Assembly: GCA_030426355.1 (NCBI GenBank)
Contig: JAUHYQ010000002.1
Location: forward strand, 124,001-188,000
Direction of reading: 5' to 3'
DNA length: 64,000 nucleotides
Source: Gammaproteobacteria bacterium
Lineage (GTDB): Bacteria > Pseudomonadota > Gammaproteobacteria > Steroidobacterales > GCA-2729495
The notes under the pieces were generated by a model. That model did no database searches, was not told the origin of the DNA, and saw only the letters and a list, made by a program, of their open reading frames with translations. The stretch's first letter is position 1; each line of letters opens with the position of its first letter. Below, piece by piece: positions 8,468 through 57,091 of the stretch. A program made the translations under genes and the position numbers.

Positions 8468-8770
8468 TTAGCCCGCGACGCGGACTTTAACCGCGGTTGC
8501 AGACGCACCGAAGTCGGTGCAAAGCGCCAGCAATTTCGGAGCCTCAAAACGGAGCCGCGAGGCCCATTCGGGGTTTGCGGCGATCACAATCAGGGTGCCG
8601 TCGTCGTGCACGTTGCAGTGCATGATGCCGTTGCTTAGGGGTTCGCCCAGATTGTTGCGCATATGCTGGCTGAGGTCGGAACGCAGGCGGGCGGCCACGG
8701 CCAGTTTCGCCAATCCCGTGTCATCAGCCGCTATCAGGTCTGACAACGACTTAGCCTTATCTTTTGACAT
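8468..8770 (-). CDS. dciA: DciA-like (DUF721) DnaB helicase operator
   Basis: This 100-residue protein belongs to the DUF721/DciA family, the ancestral bacterial factor that loads or operates the DnaB replicative helicase; DnaC replaced it in enterics. The conserved C-terminal core is visible: a beta-rich stretch around CNVHDDGTLIVIAANPEWASRLRF followed by a helix and a short terminal strand. Only a small N-terminal helical segment precedes it, so this is a compact version. The position between lpxC and secA, in reverse orientation, is the usual gammaproteobacterial place for this gene. Assignment rests on family pattern and synteny. Confidence 0.8.
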   Translation of the reverse strand: MSKDKAKSLSDLIAADDTGLAKLAVAARLRSDLSQHMRNNLGEPLSNGIMHCNVHDDGTLIVIAANPEWASRLRFEAPKLLALCTDFGASATAVKVRVAG

Positions 8771-8842
8771 AATTTCTCGAAAATTCGGTCAATTCCGTGA
8801 CCAGTTCCTTGTTGTAGAAGGCCTTTCTGCCTATTCTAGCCC

Positions 8843-8945
8843 CGCGATAAGGGCAAACGCGCTGAAAGGCGCGGACGCAAAGCTACCGATCTAAGGGCCA
8901 TCCCCTGTGAATTTGAGGGGTTCCTATGATAGCGGGGTTACCGAC
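8843..8945 (+). promoter_or_regulatory. Cyclic di-GMP riboswitch (GEMM-I)
   Basis: All the hallmark elements of the class I c-di-GMP aptamer are present in order. GGGCAAAC is at 8851-8858, followed by a short GC stem capped by a GAAA tetraloop at 8864-8867 and GGACGCAAAGC at 8873-8883. CTAAGG (8891-8896) and CCTATG (8923-8928) together resemble the 11-nt tetraloop receptor and flank a CCCCT/AGGGG hairpin, and the 3' element AGCGGGGTTACCGA is at 8931-8944. It sits about 120 bases upstream of the M23 peptidase ATG on the same strand. The aptamer is convincing from sequence alone; whether ligand turns expression on or off cannot be read. Confidence 0.94.
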
Positions 8946-9065
8946 AATGATGGCAAACAACGCATTGACGACCGTATTTTGTGCGCGCTGCGGGCGTCAA
9001 ATTTATCTATTAAAAGGGTTTTCCGCCCAACGTTGTTGTTTGCCTGCGGAGGATGTACGGCGGAT

Positions 9066-9992
9066 ATGAAACTGATTATATTGCATCGCGGCTCGCGAGC
9101 TGCGCGCTGTCTCGATTTTGCATCGGGTCAGGGTTGGTTTGCGGCGCTGGCCGTGGTGTTGACGATGGCCGTCGCGGTTACAGGTGGCTATCTGGCGGGA
9201 CGCGGCAACATGTCCGGGCCCGGGCTTGAAGATCTGTCTGCGTTGCGCGCCGATCTACTCCGCCAACGCAATGAGCTGGCAGCCATGCGCATTTCTGCTG
9301 ACGAGCACATTGATGCGCTGGCGTTGCGTATGGGCGAGCTCAATGCCCACGTTATCCGCCTGAATGCGCTCGGCAGTCGCCTGACCGGCATGGCCGACCT
9401 CGAAGACGGTGAATTTGATTTTGAGAATGCCCCGGCATTGGGTGGCCCTGCCGAGTTGTCGGAACCGGCGACCGGCGATGGACAGCTACCGAATTTGCTG
9501 GCCGATCTGCAGTCTCTCGACAACACGCTGGATCAGCAGTTGCAGCAGCTTACTGCCCTGGAAAGTCTGATGCTCGACCGCAAGTTGTCAGATCGGGCGC
9601 AGCCGCGAGGCCGCCCGATAAAAACCGGTTGGTTATCGTCTTACTTTGGCAAGCGCGCCGACCCTGTGAGCGGCAAGTCGTCATGGCATAAAGGCGTGGA
9701 TTTCGCCGGCAAACGCGGGGCCCCGGTCATTGCGGTCAGTGACGGTGTCGTCAGTTTCTCCGGTGACCGTTACGGTTACGGCAATATGGTGGAAATCCGG
9801 CACGGTAACGGCTATGTCACCCGTTACGCGCACAATCAGGAGAACGTGGTGGCTGTTGGCGACAAAGTTTCGCAAGGGCAGACGATCGCCCTGATTGGCT
9901 CTACGGGCCGATCCACCGGTCCGCACGTGCACTTTGAAGTGCATCGCAATGGCCAGCCGGTAGACCCGGCCAAGTACATTCGCGGCCGCTAG
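9066..9992 (+). CDS. M23 family murein endopeptidase, membrane anchored
   Basis: This is a LytM/M23 zinc peptidase of about 308 residues, predicted to cut peptidoglycan cross-bridges or to activate amidases in the periplasm. A membrane anchor lies at about residues 22-45 (WFAALAVVLTMAVAVTGGYLAG). A helical, probably coiled-coil region rich in Leu, Arg and Glu follows, and then the C-terminal M23 domain. Its zinc-site elements are SWHKGVDFAGKRGAPV and GRSTGPHVHFEVHRNG. ATG 9066 is chosen because the upstream reading frame lies inside the riboswitch; GGAGG is at 9048-9052. A homologue at this position upstream of secA is common in gammaproteobacteria. Here it follows a c-di-GMP riboswitch. Confidence 0.88.
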   Translation: MKLIILHRGSRAARCLDFASGQGWFAALAVVLTMAVAVTGGYLAGRGNMSGPGLEDLSALRADLLRQRNELAAMRISADEHIDALALRMGELNAHVIRLNALGSRLTGMADLEDGEFDFENAPALGGPAELSEPATGDGQLPNLLADLQSLDNTLDQQLQQLTALESLMLDRKLSDRAQPRGRPIKTGWLSSYFGKRADPVSGKSSWHKGVDFAGKRGAPVIAVSDGVVSFSGDRYGYGNMVEIRHGNGYVTRYAHNQENVVAVGDKVSQGQTIALIGSTGRSTGPHVHFEVHRNGQPVDPAKYIRGR

Positions 9993-10110: not shown

Positions 10111-10221
10111 ATGAGTAAAATGCGCGCTTTCGCCCGTTTATCAGCCTGCCGTGAGCAGCGTCGGCGGGCCCGTATTGGCTACCCTGACAAGGTTCAGGGA
10201 CAGCCCGGGATACAACACTAG
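10111..10221 (+). CDS. Candidate 36-residue leader peptide upstream of secA
   Basis: A short ATG-initiated frame encodes a basic peptide with the central stretch SACREQRRRARIGYP. It ends with TAG immediately before, and in the same frame as, the secA ATG. This is the position SecM has in E. coli, but there is no signal peptide and no recognisable SecM arrest motif. The ribosome-binding site in front of it is weak. The same RNA folds into a nested hairpin. It may be a regulatory leader or a chance open frame. Confidence 0.3.
   Translation: MSKMRAFARLSACREQRRRARIGYPDKVQGQPGIQH
10165..10207 (+). promoter_or_regulatory. Nested hairpin in front of secA
   Basis: An outer CGGGC/GCCCG pairing (10165-10169 with 10203-10207) encloses a perfect CCCTGA/TCAGGG stem (10182-10187 with 10194-10199). 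The structure ends 14 bases before the secA ATG and covers the only purine-rich stretch that could serve as its ribosome-binding site. By analogy with secM-secA it could limit secA translation until a leader is translated. This is inference. Confidence 0.45.
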
Positions 10222-13134
10222 ATGGCAAATATATTTGCGCGGCTGTTTGGTAGCCGCAACCAGCGCATACTGCGCGGCTATTCGAAATTAGTCGCAGCGG
10301 CCAACGGGCACGAAGCCGCGTTCAAGGCGCTGTCCGATGCCGACTTGCGAGCCAAGACCGACGAATTTCGCGAGCGGCTCGCAGCCGGTGAAACGGTCGA
10401 CTCGCTTATTCCCGAGGCGTTCGCCGCTGTTCGGGAAAGCTCTTCCCGCACGTTGGGTCTGCGGCATTACGACGAGCAAATGATGGGTGCGCTTACCTTG
10501 CATGAAGGCCGCATTGCAGAAATGCGCACCGGTGAGGGTAAGACCCTGGTAGCCACCTTGCCCGCTTATCTGAACGCACTGGGCGGCGACAGCGTCCATA
10601 TCGTCACGGTCAACGATTATCTGGCCAGCCGTGATGCGGAATGGATGAAGCCCGTCTATGAATTTCTCGGCATGACTGTTGGCGTTATCTCCGCGGGTCA
10701 GAGTAAGCAGGAAAAGAAGTCCGCCTACCTTTGCGACATCGTCTACGGAACCAATAATGAGTTTGGTTTCGACTATTTGCGCGACAACCTCGAATACATA
10801 CCCGAGGCACAGGTTCAGCGGCGTCTGGCATTCGCCATTGTTGACGAGGTTGACTCCATTCTGATCGACGAAGCACGCACACCGTTGATTATTTCCGGCC
10901 CGGCGGATGACAGCACGGACGTCTATGTGCAAATCAACAAGCTTATTCCCAAATTGAAGCGACAGTACGGTGATGACAATGCAGCTCGCAACCGGGAAAT
11001 CAGTGCTACCAAGGTCTCGGTGACTGATCACAACAACAACGAGTTGGGCACGATGCCATTAAGCGATGCCATTGAGGCTGCTGCCGCAGCCGGTTTCGAC
11101 CTTGTGCAGCTGGATCCGAACGCGAGCGTACCGCCTTGTCGGTTCTCGGAGTCCGGCGATTATTCTGTCGATGAAAAAGTTAAACAGGCATTTTTGACCG
11201 AGGCTGGCCACGAGCACGTTGAGCGGTTGCTGATTCAGGAAGGTTTATTGCAGGCAGGCGGGAGTTTGTACGACGCCGGCAATATCCGGTTAATGCAGCT
11301 TATATCGTCGGCTTTAAGAGCCCATGCGTGTTTTAGCAAGGATGTTGAATATATCGTCAGCAACGGTGAGGTGGTCATCGTGGATGAATTCACCGGGCGC
11401 ACAATGCCGGGCCGCCGCTGGTCAGATGGATTGCATCAGGCGGTTGAGGCAAAAGAGGGGGTGACAGTCAAGGAAGAGAATCAGACTGTTGCGTCAATTA
11501 CCTTCCAGAATTACTTCCGCATGTATGACAAGCTGGCGGGTATGACCGGTACGGCAGATACCGAGGCATTCGAGTTTCAATCCATATACGGCCTCGAGGT
11601 TGTCGTTTTGCCCACGCACCGTCCGATGGTTCGTGATGATCAGCCGGACCTGGTATACCTGACCCAGCGCGACAAATTTCTGGCGATTATCGAAGATATT
11701 AAAGATTGCGTGGAACGTAAGCAGCCCGTGCTGGTTGGTACCACGTCGATTGAAGCATCGGAATTGCTTTCCGGGGAACTCAAGAAAGCTAATATTCAGC
11801 ATGAAGTGCTGAACGCCAAACAGCACGAGCGTGAAGCCCATATTGTTGCGGAAGCAGGTCGACCCGCGGCGGTAACCATTGCGACCAACATGGCCGGCCG
11901 AGGCACCGATATTGTATTGGGTGGCAGCCTGGAGACCGAGTTAGCCGCGCTTGATCCTGATAGCGATGAGGCTGCGATAGCAGCGCATCGTCAGGACTGG
12001 GCGAATCGTCACCAGCAGGTTCTGGAAAGTGGCGGGTTGCATATCATCGGTACCGAAAGGCACGAATCACGACGCATTGATAATCAGTTGCGCGGGCGTT
12101 CCGGGCGTCAGGGTGATCCAGGTTCCAGCCGCTTTTATTTGTCAATGGAAGACAATCTGATGCGCATCTTTGGCGACCCGGAGCGCACCAAATCGCTGCT
12201 TTCCCGCGTGGGTATGCGTGAAGGCGAAGCGATCGAAAGCGGTCTGCTGACGCGGCAGATCGAACGCGCCCAGCGCAAGGTGGAAGCGCACAACTTCGAT
12301 GCGCGCAAGCAACTCCTGGAATACGATGACGTCGCCAATGATCAACGTACCGTTATCTATCAGCAGCGAAATGAGCTGATGCAGGCGGAGGATATCGGCG
12401 ACTCCGTTGCCGGCATCCGTGTTGAAGTCGTGAACGCCGTGATCGATGATTATATTCCCGCGCAGAGCATGGAGGAGCAGTGGGATATACCCGGTCTGAC
12501 GCACGCGTTGGAACGAGAATTTGCGTTCAAGGGCGACATCGCTGCATGGCTGGAGCAAGAGGGCGTGTCCGAGGACGATATCCGTGAGCGGGTACTGGCT
12601 CAGATCGAGGCAGATTACGAGGCAAAGACCTCGCGGGTTGGTGCCGAAGTCATGCGCATGATTGAAAAGGAGTACATGCTCAAGTTTCTTGATATGTACT
12701 GGCGCGAGCATCTTGCCGGCCTGGACTACCTGCGACAGGGGATCGGCCTAAGGAGTTATGCCCAGAAAAATCCCAAACAGGAATACAAGCGTGAAGCTTT
12801 CGAAATGTTTGGCGGCATGCTCGACCGGGTTAAGCAAAATCTGATCCGCTTTTTGTCTCTGGTTGAGGTGCGTGGCGAGGAAGATATCAAAGCCGCCCAG
12901 CAGCGCCCGGCCGCAGAAAAAATGCAGTATCAACATGCGGAAGCTTCAGCGCTGGGAGCGGCTCGGCAGGCGGCGCCGTCGCCGGGTCCGGTGGCAAAAC
13001 CGGGCGGCGGACCGGCACAGCAGCAGGTACCGGTAGAACCGTTTGTGCGCGATGTGCCCAAGGTAGGGCGCAATGAATCATGTCCGTGCGGTTCGGGCAA
13101 AAAATACAAGCACTGCCACGGTAAGCTTTCCTGA
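10222..13134 (+). CDS. secA: SecA preprotein translocase ATPase with an IF3-N-like insertion
   Basis: SecA is the ATPase motor that drives preproteins through SecYEG. At 970 residues it is about 60-70 longer than typical gammaproteobacterial SecA. Standard parts are the Walker A segment MRTGEGKT (residues 101-108), the Walker B segment IVDEVDS near 207, the helicase motifs around [10 protein letters not shown] and [10 protein letters not shown], the scaffold and wing region, and the C-terminal zinc-binding [13 protein letters not shown] that recognises SecB or ribosomes. The extra length lies mainly at about residues 254-311, near the start of the preprotein cross-linking domain. There the sequence (for example [13 protein letters not shown] followed by PPCR) matches the N-terminal domain of translation initiation factor IF3. 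The frame is uninterrupted on both sides and codon use looks like the neighbours. MutT follows after 14 bases. Confidence 0.97.
10978..11154 (+). other. IF3 N-terminal-domain-like insertion inside SecA
   Basis: Between the SecA segment KLIPKLKRQ and the SecA strand DYSVDEK, where E. coli has about a dozen residues, there are about 58 extra residues. By eye the piece matches E. coli IF3 residues 16-72 at roughly 25 positions. Shared features are N-x-EI, LG, the A-x-AG-x-DLV core, PNA and PP/CR, in the same order and with the same spacing apart from one shift in the PP-CR loop. The IF3 linker and C-terminal domain are not present. I regard the homology as real; function is unknown. Confidence 0.85.
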
Positions 13135-34779: not shown

Positions 34780-34944
34780 TTTGTTCCTGATTTAATTAGT
34801 GTTTTTTTTCTGCGGTGCCGGTGCAGGGGCTGGAACCATAGCAGAGAATCCGGCTTGTATAAACGGGTCTGGCGCTGGTGTAAATGAGTTCCGGCCGCCG
34901 CGGGCTTTCGGCCGCCGCGCATATCGTCTATATTCATTTCCGGC

Positions 34945-35030
34945 CTTAGGGGTGGCTCGTGTGAGCCTGAGATTCCGGTATTCGGAAAACCCTCGGAACC
35001 TGATCCGGTTAGTACCGGCGTAGGAATAGG
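34945..35030 (+). promoter_or_regulatory. TPP (THI-box) riboswitch
   Basis: The thiamine pyrophosphate aptamer is recognisable from GGGGTG at 34949-34954, CTGAGA at 34967-34972, the core GAACCTGATC at 34996-35005 and GCGTAGG at 35018-35024, with the P3 and P4 stems between them. A TATATT that could be a -10 element lies at 34929-34934. Downstream are two mutually exclusive hairpins that reach the start of the receptor gene. The riboswitch controls the thiamine uptake operon and would lower expression when TPP is plentiful. Confidence 0.96.
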
Positions 35031-35090
35031 ACAGACCTTACTCCCGCTCGTTCTAAGCCGGGTCTCTAAGTAACTACTAGAGATCCGATC

Positions 35091-55870: not shown

Positions 55871-57091
55871 CTACTGAGCTGACAGTGCGACGCTCTGGGT
55901 CAGCTCAAAGCGGTCGGTGGTCTGATAGGACTCGCTGGCCTGATTGTCGCAAACGCGATTGCGGCCTTCTTCTTTAGCTGCGTAGCAGGCGGCGTCGGCG
56001 GCCTTCAGCATGCTTGTGGCGGTGTGTTCGCCAACCAGGCCATACGAAACACCGATGCTTGCTTGTACTGAGTAATAGCGGCCTTCGTATTCCACGCGTA
56101 GGTTTTCAATTTGCGAGCGAATCTGCTCAGCGATTTCCAGCGCGCGTTGCTGCGGGCAGCCCTCCAGTATGACGGCGAACTCGTCGCCGCCGACGCGCGC
56201 GGCGGTATCCGCGTCGCGCGTATTGCGCCGTATGATTTCGCCGACGTTGCGGAGGATCAAATCGCCGGCCGCATGACCGCCGCTGTCGTTCACCTCTTTA
56301 AACAAGTCGAGATCAATGAATATCAGCGAGTAGTCGTCGTCGGCGCGACGGTTGTCAGCAGTTAGCTTGCGCAACCGACGGTTAAACTCGCCGTGGTTGA
56401 CCAGGTTCACCAGCGAATCATGCGTCGCGCGATGATGCAGTTCACGTGTCAGGTCCGCATTTTTCACCTGCAATTCCAGCAGGCTGACGACGTTCTTGCG
56501 TGCTTCCCCGGCCGCCCGAATCAGGGCCAGTGCGAACAGTGTTACGAGCAACGCCATGACATTGCCGTGCGAGCCTTCAGACCACCACATTTGCAGAGCG
56601 AACGGCGCCAGTGTGGGGACGATAAAAAACGGAAAGGCGCCCGGTACCGGTGCGTAAGCGGATACCGCCCCCGCGGATATGCCTGCCAGTACGAGCGCCA
56701 GATAAGCCTGGTGCAAAACGGATTCTGAGGGAAACACAAATGCTGCTAGGCCGCCCCAAACCACTCCGGCCAGAAAGGTCGCACCCGAATAGCCGCGCTT
56801 CCAGCGCATAAACATTACAGCGGTTTTTTCGCTTCGACCGTACTGTTGCTGCATCATGAGCCGCAGCAAAGTCAGGGTGGACAGCGAGCCCAGCCAGAGG
56901 ATGAGGGTCTGACTGTCAGCTACCGGCCACAACAGTACGACGATCACAAAAGCAGTGAAAATACTGGTTGCCAGAGCGGCGGTCAGGTTTTCAAAAGCGA
57001 TACGCAGCTGTTCGCCCTCGGTCCAAGCAGGGCCTGCTGCAAGGTCTCTAAGGGTACCTACCTGGGTATCGTCAGCGCGTGTGTTTGGCAT
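55871..57091 (-). CDS. Membrane-bound diguanylate cyclase
   Basis: This protein of about 406 residues makes cyclic di-GMP from two GTP. Six membrane helices fill residues about 40-195. A GGDEF domain follows with the intact active site RVGGDEFAVILEG and an inhibitory I-site RDAD exactly five residues before GGDEF, so product inhibition is expected. Other domain motifs are DLDLFKEVNDSGGHAAGD and QASIGVSYG. The helical N-terminal region resembles a MASE-type sensor. ATG 57091 is preferred. It is 94 bases downstream of ccoS on the same strand and could be transcribed with the cbb3 cluster. Confidence 0.93.
   Translation of the reverse strand: MPNTRADDTQVGTLRDLAAGPAWTEGEQLRIAFENLTAALATSIFTAFVIVVLLWPVADSQTLILWLGSLSTLTLLRLMMQQQYGRSEKTAVMFMRWKRGYSGATFLAGVVWGGLAAFVFPSESVLHQAYLALVLAGISAGAVSAYAPVPGAFPFFIVPTLAPFALQMWWSEGSHGNVMALLVTLFALALIRAAGEARKNVVSLLELQVKNADLTRELHHRATHDSLVNLVNHGEFNRRLRKLTADNRRADDDYSLIFIDLDLFKEVNDSGGHAAGDLILRNVGEIIRRNTRDADTAARVGGDEFAVILEGCPQQRALEIAEQIRSQIENLRVEYEGRYYSVQASIGVSYGLVGEHTATSMLKAADAACYAAKEEGRNRVCDNQASESYQTTDRFELTQSVALSAQ

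Follow-up and report, generated by a model that had tools for sequence, protein, structure and literature searches.

Does cyclic di-GMP (c-di-GMP) act directly on the synthesis of a cell-wall peptidase, and does its influence extend to the genes that follow? The question is raised by a locus in the window, i.e., the whole stretch of 64,000 nucleotides of gammaproteobacterial DNA analyzed here, in which a c-di-GMP-I (GEMM-I) riboswitch had been proposed ahead of an M23 peptidase gene, secA and mutT. The features of the locus are collected in Table 1. The reading that we favor, with a probability of about 0.85, is that the M23 mRNA, which is started from the promoter at 8809-8837, begins with a c-di-GMP-I riboswitch, and that it changes the folding of the leader and the translation of M23.

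Table 1. Features of the M23 locus, in coordinates of the window
Feature	Position	Strand	Basis or remark
DciA/DUF721 gene, transcribed divergently to M23	8468-8770	-	PF05258, E = 2.3e-8
Promoter: -35 TTGTTG 8809-8814, -10 TATTCT 8832-8837	8809-8837	+	Pattern conserved in relatives
c-di-GMP-I (GEMM-I) riboswitch aptamer	8842-8945	+	RF01051 match; covariation over 32 orthologous aptamers
Expression platform, 120 nt, aptamer to start codon	8946-9065	+	Structure conserved in genus; no U-tract terminator
Long-range leader stem, 5′ strand GGCAAACAAC	8952-8961	+	Pairs with 9035-9044
Platform-internal hairpin UUGACG ... CGUCAA, enclosed by the long-range stem	8965-9000	+	Predicted fold; covariation in genus
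Long-range leader stem, 3′ strand GUUGUUUGCC	9035-9044	+	Ends 3 nt before the Shine-Dalgarno sequence
Shine-Dalgarno GGAGG	9048-9052	+	Sequence; GGAGG also in 3/4 genus relatives
M23 (LytM-type) peptidase, N-terminal hydrophobic membrane segment	9066-9992	+	PF01551, E = 3e-37
GTAAAAT, -10-like element, probable separate secA promoter	10115-10121	+	Motif conserved in M23-secA gaps
secA, IF3_N-like insertion at residues 257-322	10222-13134	+	Pfam

The whole window was scanned with cmscan against all 4227 Rfam families. RF01051 gave a match of 74.5 bits (E = 8.8e-13 for the whole window), compared with a gathering score of 35, on the + strand at 8842-8945, and the model was covered completely from position 1 to 87. 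The length of the aptamer, 104 nucleotides, is due to an insert that P3 carries relative to the model. The GAAA tetraloop occupies 8863-8866, and the CTAAGG/CCTATG receptor pair of P3 is present, as seen in the sequence and the RF01051 match. The aptamer ends 120 nucleotides before the ATG of the M23 gene at 9066. The initial annotation had described a complete GEMM-I aptamer with these motifs, 120 bases before an M23 peptidase gene, and its coordinates and motifs were right.

The ligand-contact residues are canonical, both in the window and in an alignment of 32 rows: G20 within AAGGGC, A47 within CGCAAAG and C92 within TTACCG, in what we take to be the numbering of Vc2. The role of position 20 is supported by earlier work (PMC9262584; PMC6456294). 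Across the 32 orthologous aptamers 96.7% of the structure cells are paired, and seven pairs have changed on both sides. This count was reached by 4 of 500 shuffles, and the other covariation measures by none of the 500. The element in the window is a genuine aptamer of the well-known c-di-GMP-I class, and as such it would bind c-di-GMP. Some relatives match RF03167 (c-di-GMP-I-GGC) better; a separate ligand class was rejected for them, because their contact residues are identical.

Might the aptamer of the window genus sense another cyclic dinucleotide, 3′,3′-cGAMP? GEMM-I aptamers with A20 are selective for cGAMP (PMC6456294), and one related genus, g18, carries A20 at its M23 locus. Against this, G20 is found in the window and in each of the five genus members, A20 being confined to g18, and we regard cGAMP sensing in the window genus as highly improbable. 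The cGAMP-responsive GEMM-Ib riboswitches of Geobacter belong to the same aptamer family, and differ from the window in having A20 rather than G20. In genus g18 (family f10) the aptamer upstream of M23 has A20 in all five available genomes (L056, L060, L157, L158 and L159), and in two of these genomes the other GEMM-I aptamers that were checked, six in number, have G20. A change of ligand at one gene is thus possible in that genus.

The host genome encodes 15 GGDEF domains and contains four GEMM-I aptamers including that of the window. Taken together, the GGDEF domains and the three further aptamers make c-di-GMP signaling plausible in this host. Those three (L001, L002 and L004, on contigs C9, C9 and C7 of the host assembly G000) are followed by genes for a thioredoxin-like protein, an FAD-binding/ALO-type oxidase and a secreted protein with a PEP-CTERM-like tail VPVPAAVWLFGSAIGLLGFRRK. 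A GGDEF domain protein is encoded in the window itself, at about 55955-56428 on the - strand (G000:C5:179955-180428). The window also contains a TPP riboswitch at 34938-35043 on the + strand (RF00059, 75.5 bits).

If the aptamer is to control M23, it should be transcribed with it. Just before the aptamer, 32 of the 38 relatives from the order share the pattern CTTGN...CATAGT/TATTCT, its spacing almost constant, and the same pattern is retained at -64 in two genomes that have lost the aptamer (L040 and L044). The aptamer begins about 5 bases past the -10 element. From the position of this promoter, transcription is predicted to start at about 8843-8845, in the first bases of the aptamer. The initial annotation had named a promoter downstream of the aptamer as evidence that would count against it; between the aptamer and the M23 start codon none was found by a generic consensus scan, which also missed the conserved promoter upstream.

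We searched 60 related genomes for the aptamer and for the M23 protein, surveying the loci by Rfam scans and with a model built from the 32 M23-linked aptamers. The sampled genomes were mostly gammaproteobacterial MAGs, among them a Woeseiaceae MAG (L066). Members of the window genus and most of the sampled genera of family f1 carry the aptamer ahead of the M23 ortholog, and M23-linked aptamers occur in nine families of the order (f1, f2, f3, f4, f7, f8, f10, f11 and f12), mostly some 90-140 nt upstream of the gene. No aptamer was found before the best M23 relative in families f5, f6, f9, f13, f15 and f16, nor at 66 further M23 loci (L068-L133) from Microbulbifer, Alcanivorax, Endozoicomonas-like, Lysobacter and other gammaproteobacteria. 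Genus g2 has kept the promoter and lost both aptamer and platform; just 13-17-bit remnants of the aptamer occupy the orthologous place in genus g5 and in G039 (f4), and in G026 hardly more than the P2 hairpin is left. Several stages of riboswitch loss can be seen at loci that retain the promoter: deletion in L040 and L044, remnants in L042, L043 and L054, and a hairpin alone in L041. Judged from this distribution, the pairing of aptamer and M23 gene is old within the order; a small number of lineages have retained the promoter while the aptamer decayed or was deleted.

The target protein resembles M23 endopeptidases of known structure, its relatives in the PDB being 3slu, 6muk and ShyA (6ue4). 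The hydrophobic segment, read from the sequence, is N-terminal and the M23 domain C-terminal. The active-site motifs are complete: HxxxD (HKGVD) at residue 208, YAH (YAHN), and HxH (HVHFE) at residue 287. Since these are retained, hydrolase is a fair description of the protein. No named NCBIfam equivalog fits it, the scores falling far under every cut-off, that of MepM included, and we therefore call it an M23 peptidase with no assigned substrate. The window genus keeps HxH, whereas the first histidine is replaced by asparagine (NxH; NLH) in 20 of 34 aptamer-linked loci, and in several loci that have no aptamer. Catalysis may differ in those relatives, as the substitution may alter or abolish it. 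The proposal of the initial annotation that the riboswitch sets the level of a cell-wall hydrolase is strengthened in part: the M23 leader has its promoter upstream, the host has its GGDEF domains, the arrangement is retained across the order and the LytM motifs are kept. The setting of the level itself stands as a prediction.

How might ligand binding be communicated to the M23 gene? As we envisage it, transcription would initiate at the promoter at 8809-8837 and the aptamer would fold first, ahead of the 120-nt leader. Binding of c-di-GMP would then alter the folding of this downstream leader, and its refolding would set the efficiency with which M23 is translated. The secA gene would be driven mainly by a promoter of its own, read-through from M23 having at most a partial effect.

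In the leader, the long-range stem and the hairpin that it encloses show double changes in 10 of 16 pairs, compared with a shuffle mean of 3.5, in an alignment of only five sequences from the genus. This signal vanishes when the partner strands of the same five sequences are slid relative to one another; the stem is missing or weak in one genus member (G003). No intrinsic terminator, i.e., a stem followed by a run of U, was found between the aptamer and the start codon. The absence of such a terminator, together with a covarying long-range stem that ends just before the Shine-Dalgarno sequence, favors translational control, and we infer that the riboswitch acts on translation or mRNA stability rather than on transcription termination. 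Attenuation of transcription, by Rho or by a terminator that we have not recognized, seems to us the less probable course, with some arguments in its favor. The relatives Cd1 (OFF) and Geobacter pilM (ON) work on transcription (PMC9262584), a Rho site could fit into the 120-nt leader, and one hairpin of 6 bp covaries in the genus. The lack of a stem and U-run anywhere from the aptamer to the start codon speaks against it, as does the sequence that follows the hairpin, which is not U-rich in G002 and G004.

We computed the accessibility of the start region. In the window leader it is barely altered when the aptamer is forced to form, changing from 0.43 to 0.47, and the leader as a whole folds no better than shuffled sequences (z = 0.67). 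Over 32 leaders there was no consistent shift on forcing the aptamer, the mean change being 0.02 ± 0.10. Relief of Shine-Dalgarno sequestration by aptamer folding was therefore rejected as a general rule. The platforms differ among genera, which therefore do not share one conserved mechanism of switching.

In family f2 the leader is only 47 nt long. Here the P3 strand of the aptamer, GCGGGGUUACCG, pairs near-perfectly with CGGUGGCCCCGUG over the GTG start, and this pairing of the ribosome-binding site and start by the 3′ strand of the aptamer is calculated at -25.4 kcal/mol (z about -2.6). The computed accessibility of the start region is 0.05-0.11 when free and 0.33-0.37 with the aptamer formed, and folding of the aptamer is thus predicted to free the start, as in an ON switch. 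Genus g8 has a similar, weaker pairing with the ribosome-binding site (z about -2.4), and no computed gain in accessibility on formation of the aptamer: the value falls in L050 and is unchanged in L052. As a general mechanism the pairing was rejected, because it stands out only in f2 and g8, with a mean z of -0.1. For the window we lean weakly toward an ON switch, from the f2 analysis, in which the strand that can cover the start codon would be pulled away as the aptamer folds.

Two other pairings were considered and set aside. Folding of the alignment proposed that the Shine-Dalgarno sequence pairs with TTCCTT upstream of the aptamer; this was rejected because TTCCTT overlaps the -35 side of the promoter, lies upstream of the point where transcription is predicted to begin and persists at loci that have no aptamer. 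A speculative pairing, noticed by eye, of GUUUGCC before the Shine-Dalgarno sequence with GGCAAAC of the aptamer itself forms 7 bp in the window, and is less well kept in G001.

Does control by the riboswitch extend to secA and mutT, as the initial annotation had suggested? The M23, secA and mutT genes are co-directional, M23 and secA are adjacent across the sampled gammaproteobacteria, and the interval separating these two yielded no strong terminator, so that read-through is possible. A long M23-secA-mutT transcript governed by the riboswitch would let c-di-GMP set the level of SecA as well. The gap between M23 and secA measures 229 bases in the window and ranges over about 100-230 nt across the order. 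It is otherwise poorly conserved, yet GTA[ACG]AAT occurs in 21 of 38 such gaps, compared with 0.53 expected from shuffles, and this -10-like motif is invariant in the window genus. Its conservation before secA indicates that secA probably has its own promoter. SecA is, moreover, normally required at all times, a constant need that also argues against the long transcript. We therefore consider it unlikely that the riboswitch governs secA and mutT, and that part of the original proposal is weakened.

In the SecA protein itself, an inserted segment (residues 257-322, window 10990-11187) matches the N-terminal domain of translation initiation factor IF3 (PF05198, E = 6.7e-14) and sits in the region of the preprotein cross-linking domain. 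It recurs patchily, in about 19 of the 60 genomes searched, and no report of such an insertion was found in the literature searched.

Riboswitches for c-di-GMP are usually discussed in relation to adhesins, pili, flagella and the matrix. In its aptamer sequence, secondary structure, ligand-contact residues and predicted place at the start of an mRNA, the window element is the same as the known c-di-GMP-I riboswitches Vc1 and Vc2 of V. cholerae and Cd1 of C. difficile. Unlike them, its target is an M23 peptidase, at an lpxC-dciA-M23-secA locus, and its platform is a long structured leader with no recognizable terminator. A search of one review turned up no peptidase, hydrolase or peptidoglycan target except a surface protease of C. 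difficile (PMC6366702). The genes affected by the Geobacter GEMM-Ib riboswitches include an operon of lipoprotein transpeptidases (PMC6456294), a precedent for possible wall-related targets. In the parts of PMC7705223 consulted, c-di-GMP affects autoaggregation of Erwinia amylovora through EagA, a MepM-type M23 murein hydrolase, and no riboswitch is described for it there. EagA contains a LysM domain and is encoded within a Zur-linked znuA/znuCB cluster, whereas the window protein has no LysM match and its gene adjoins secA. Within the open literature searched, the original GEMM surveys lying outside it, we found no paper that connects an M23 peptidase or secA with a riboswitch for c-di-GMP.

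The class of riboswitch is known, and the conserved M23 target is the new part. As a tentative and rather doubtful extension, c-di-GMP may directly set how much of a membrane-anchored M23 peptidase is made from a core envelope locus in a mostly uncultured order of gammaproteobacteria. It would do so via an RNA switch that lineages have retained, re-wired or lost and that one genus, whose other aptamers have G20, has changed to A20 at this gene; remodeling of the wall might then be a direct output of cyclic-dinucleotide signaling. A conserved switch ahead of a peptidoglycan peptidase gene located between lpxC and secA would link c-di-GMP directly to wall remodeling, and a single locus whose copies form a natural series, from intact through decayed to deleted or altered to A20, provides a useful system in which to follow changes of riboswitch ligand and mechanism.
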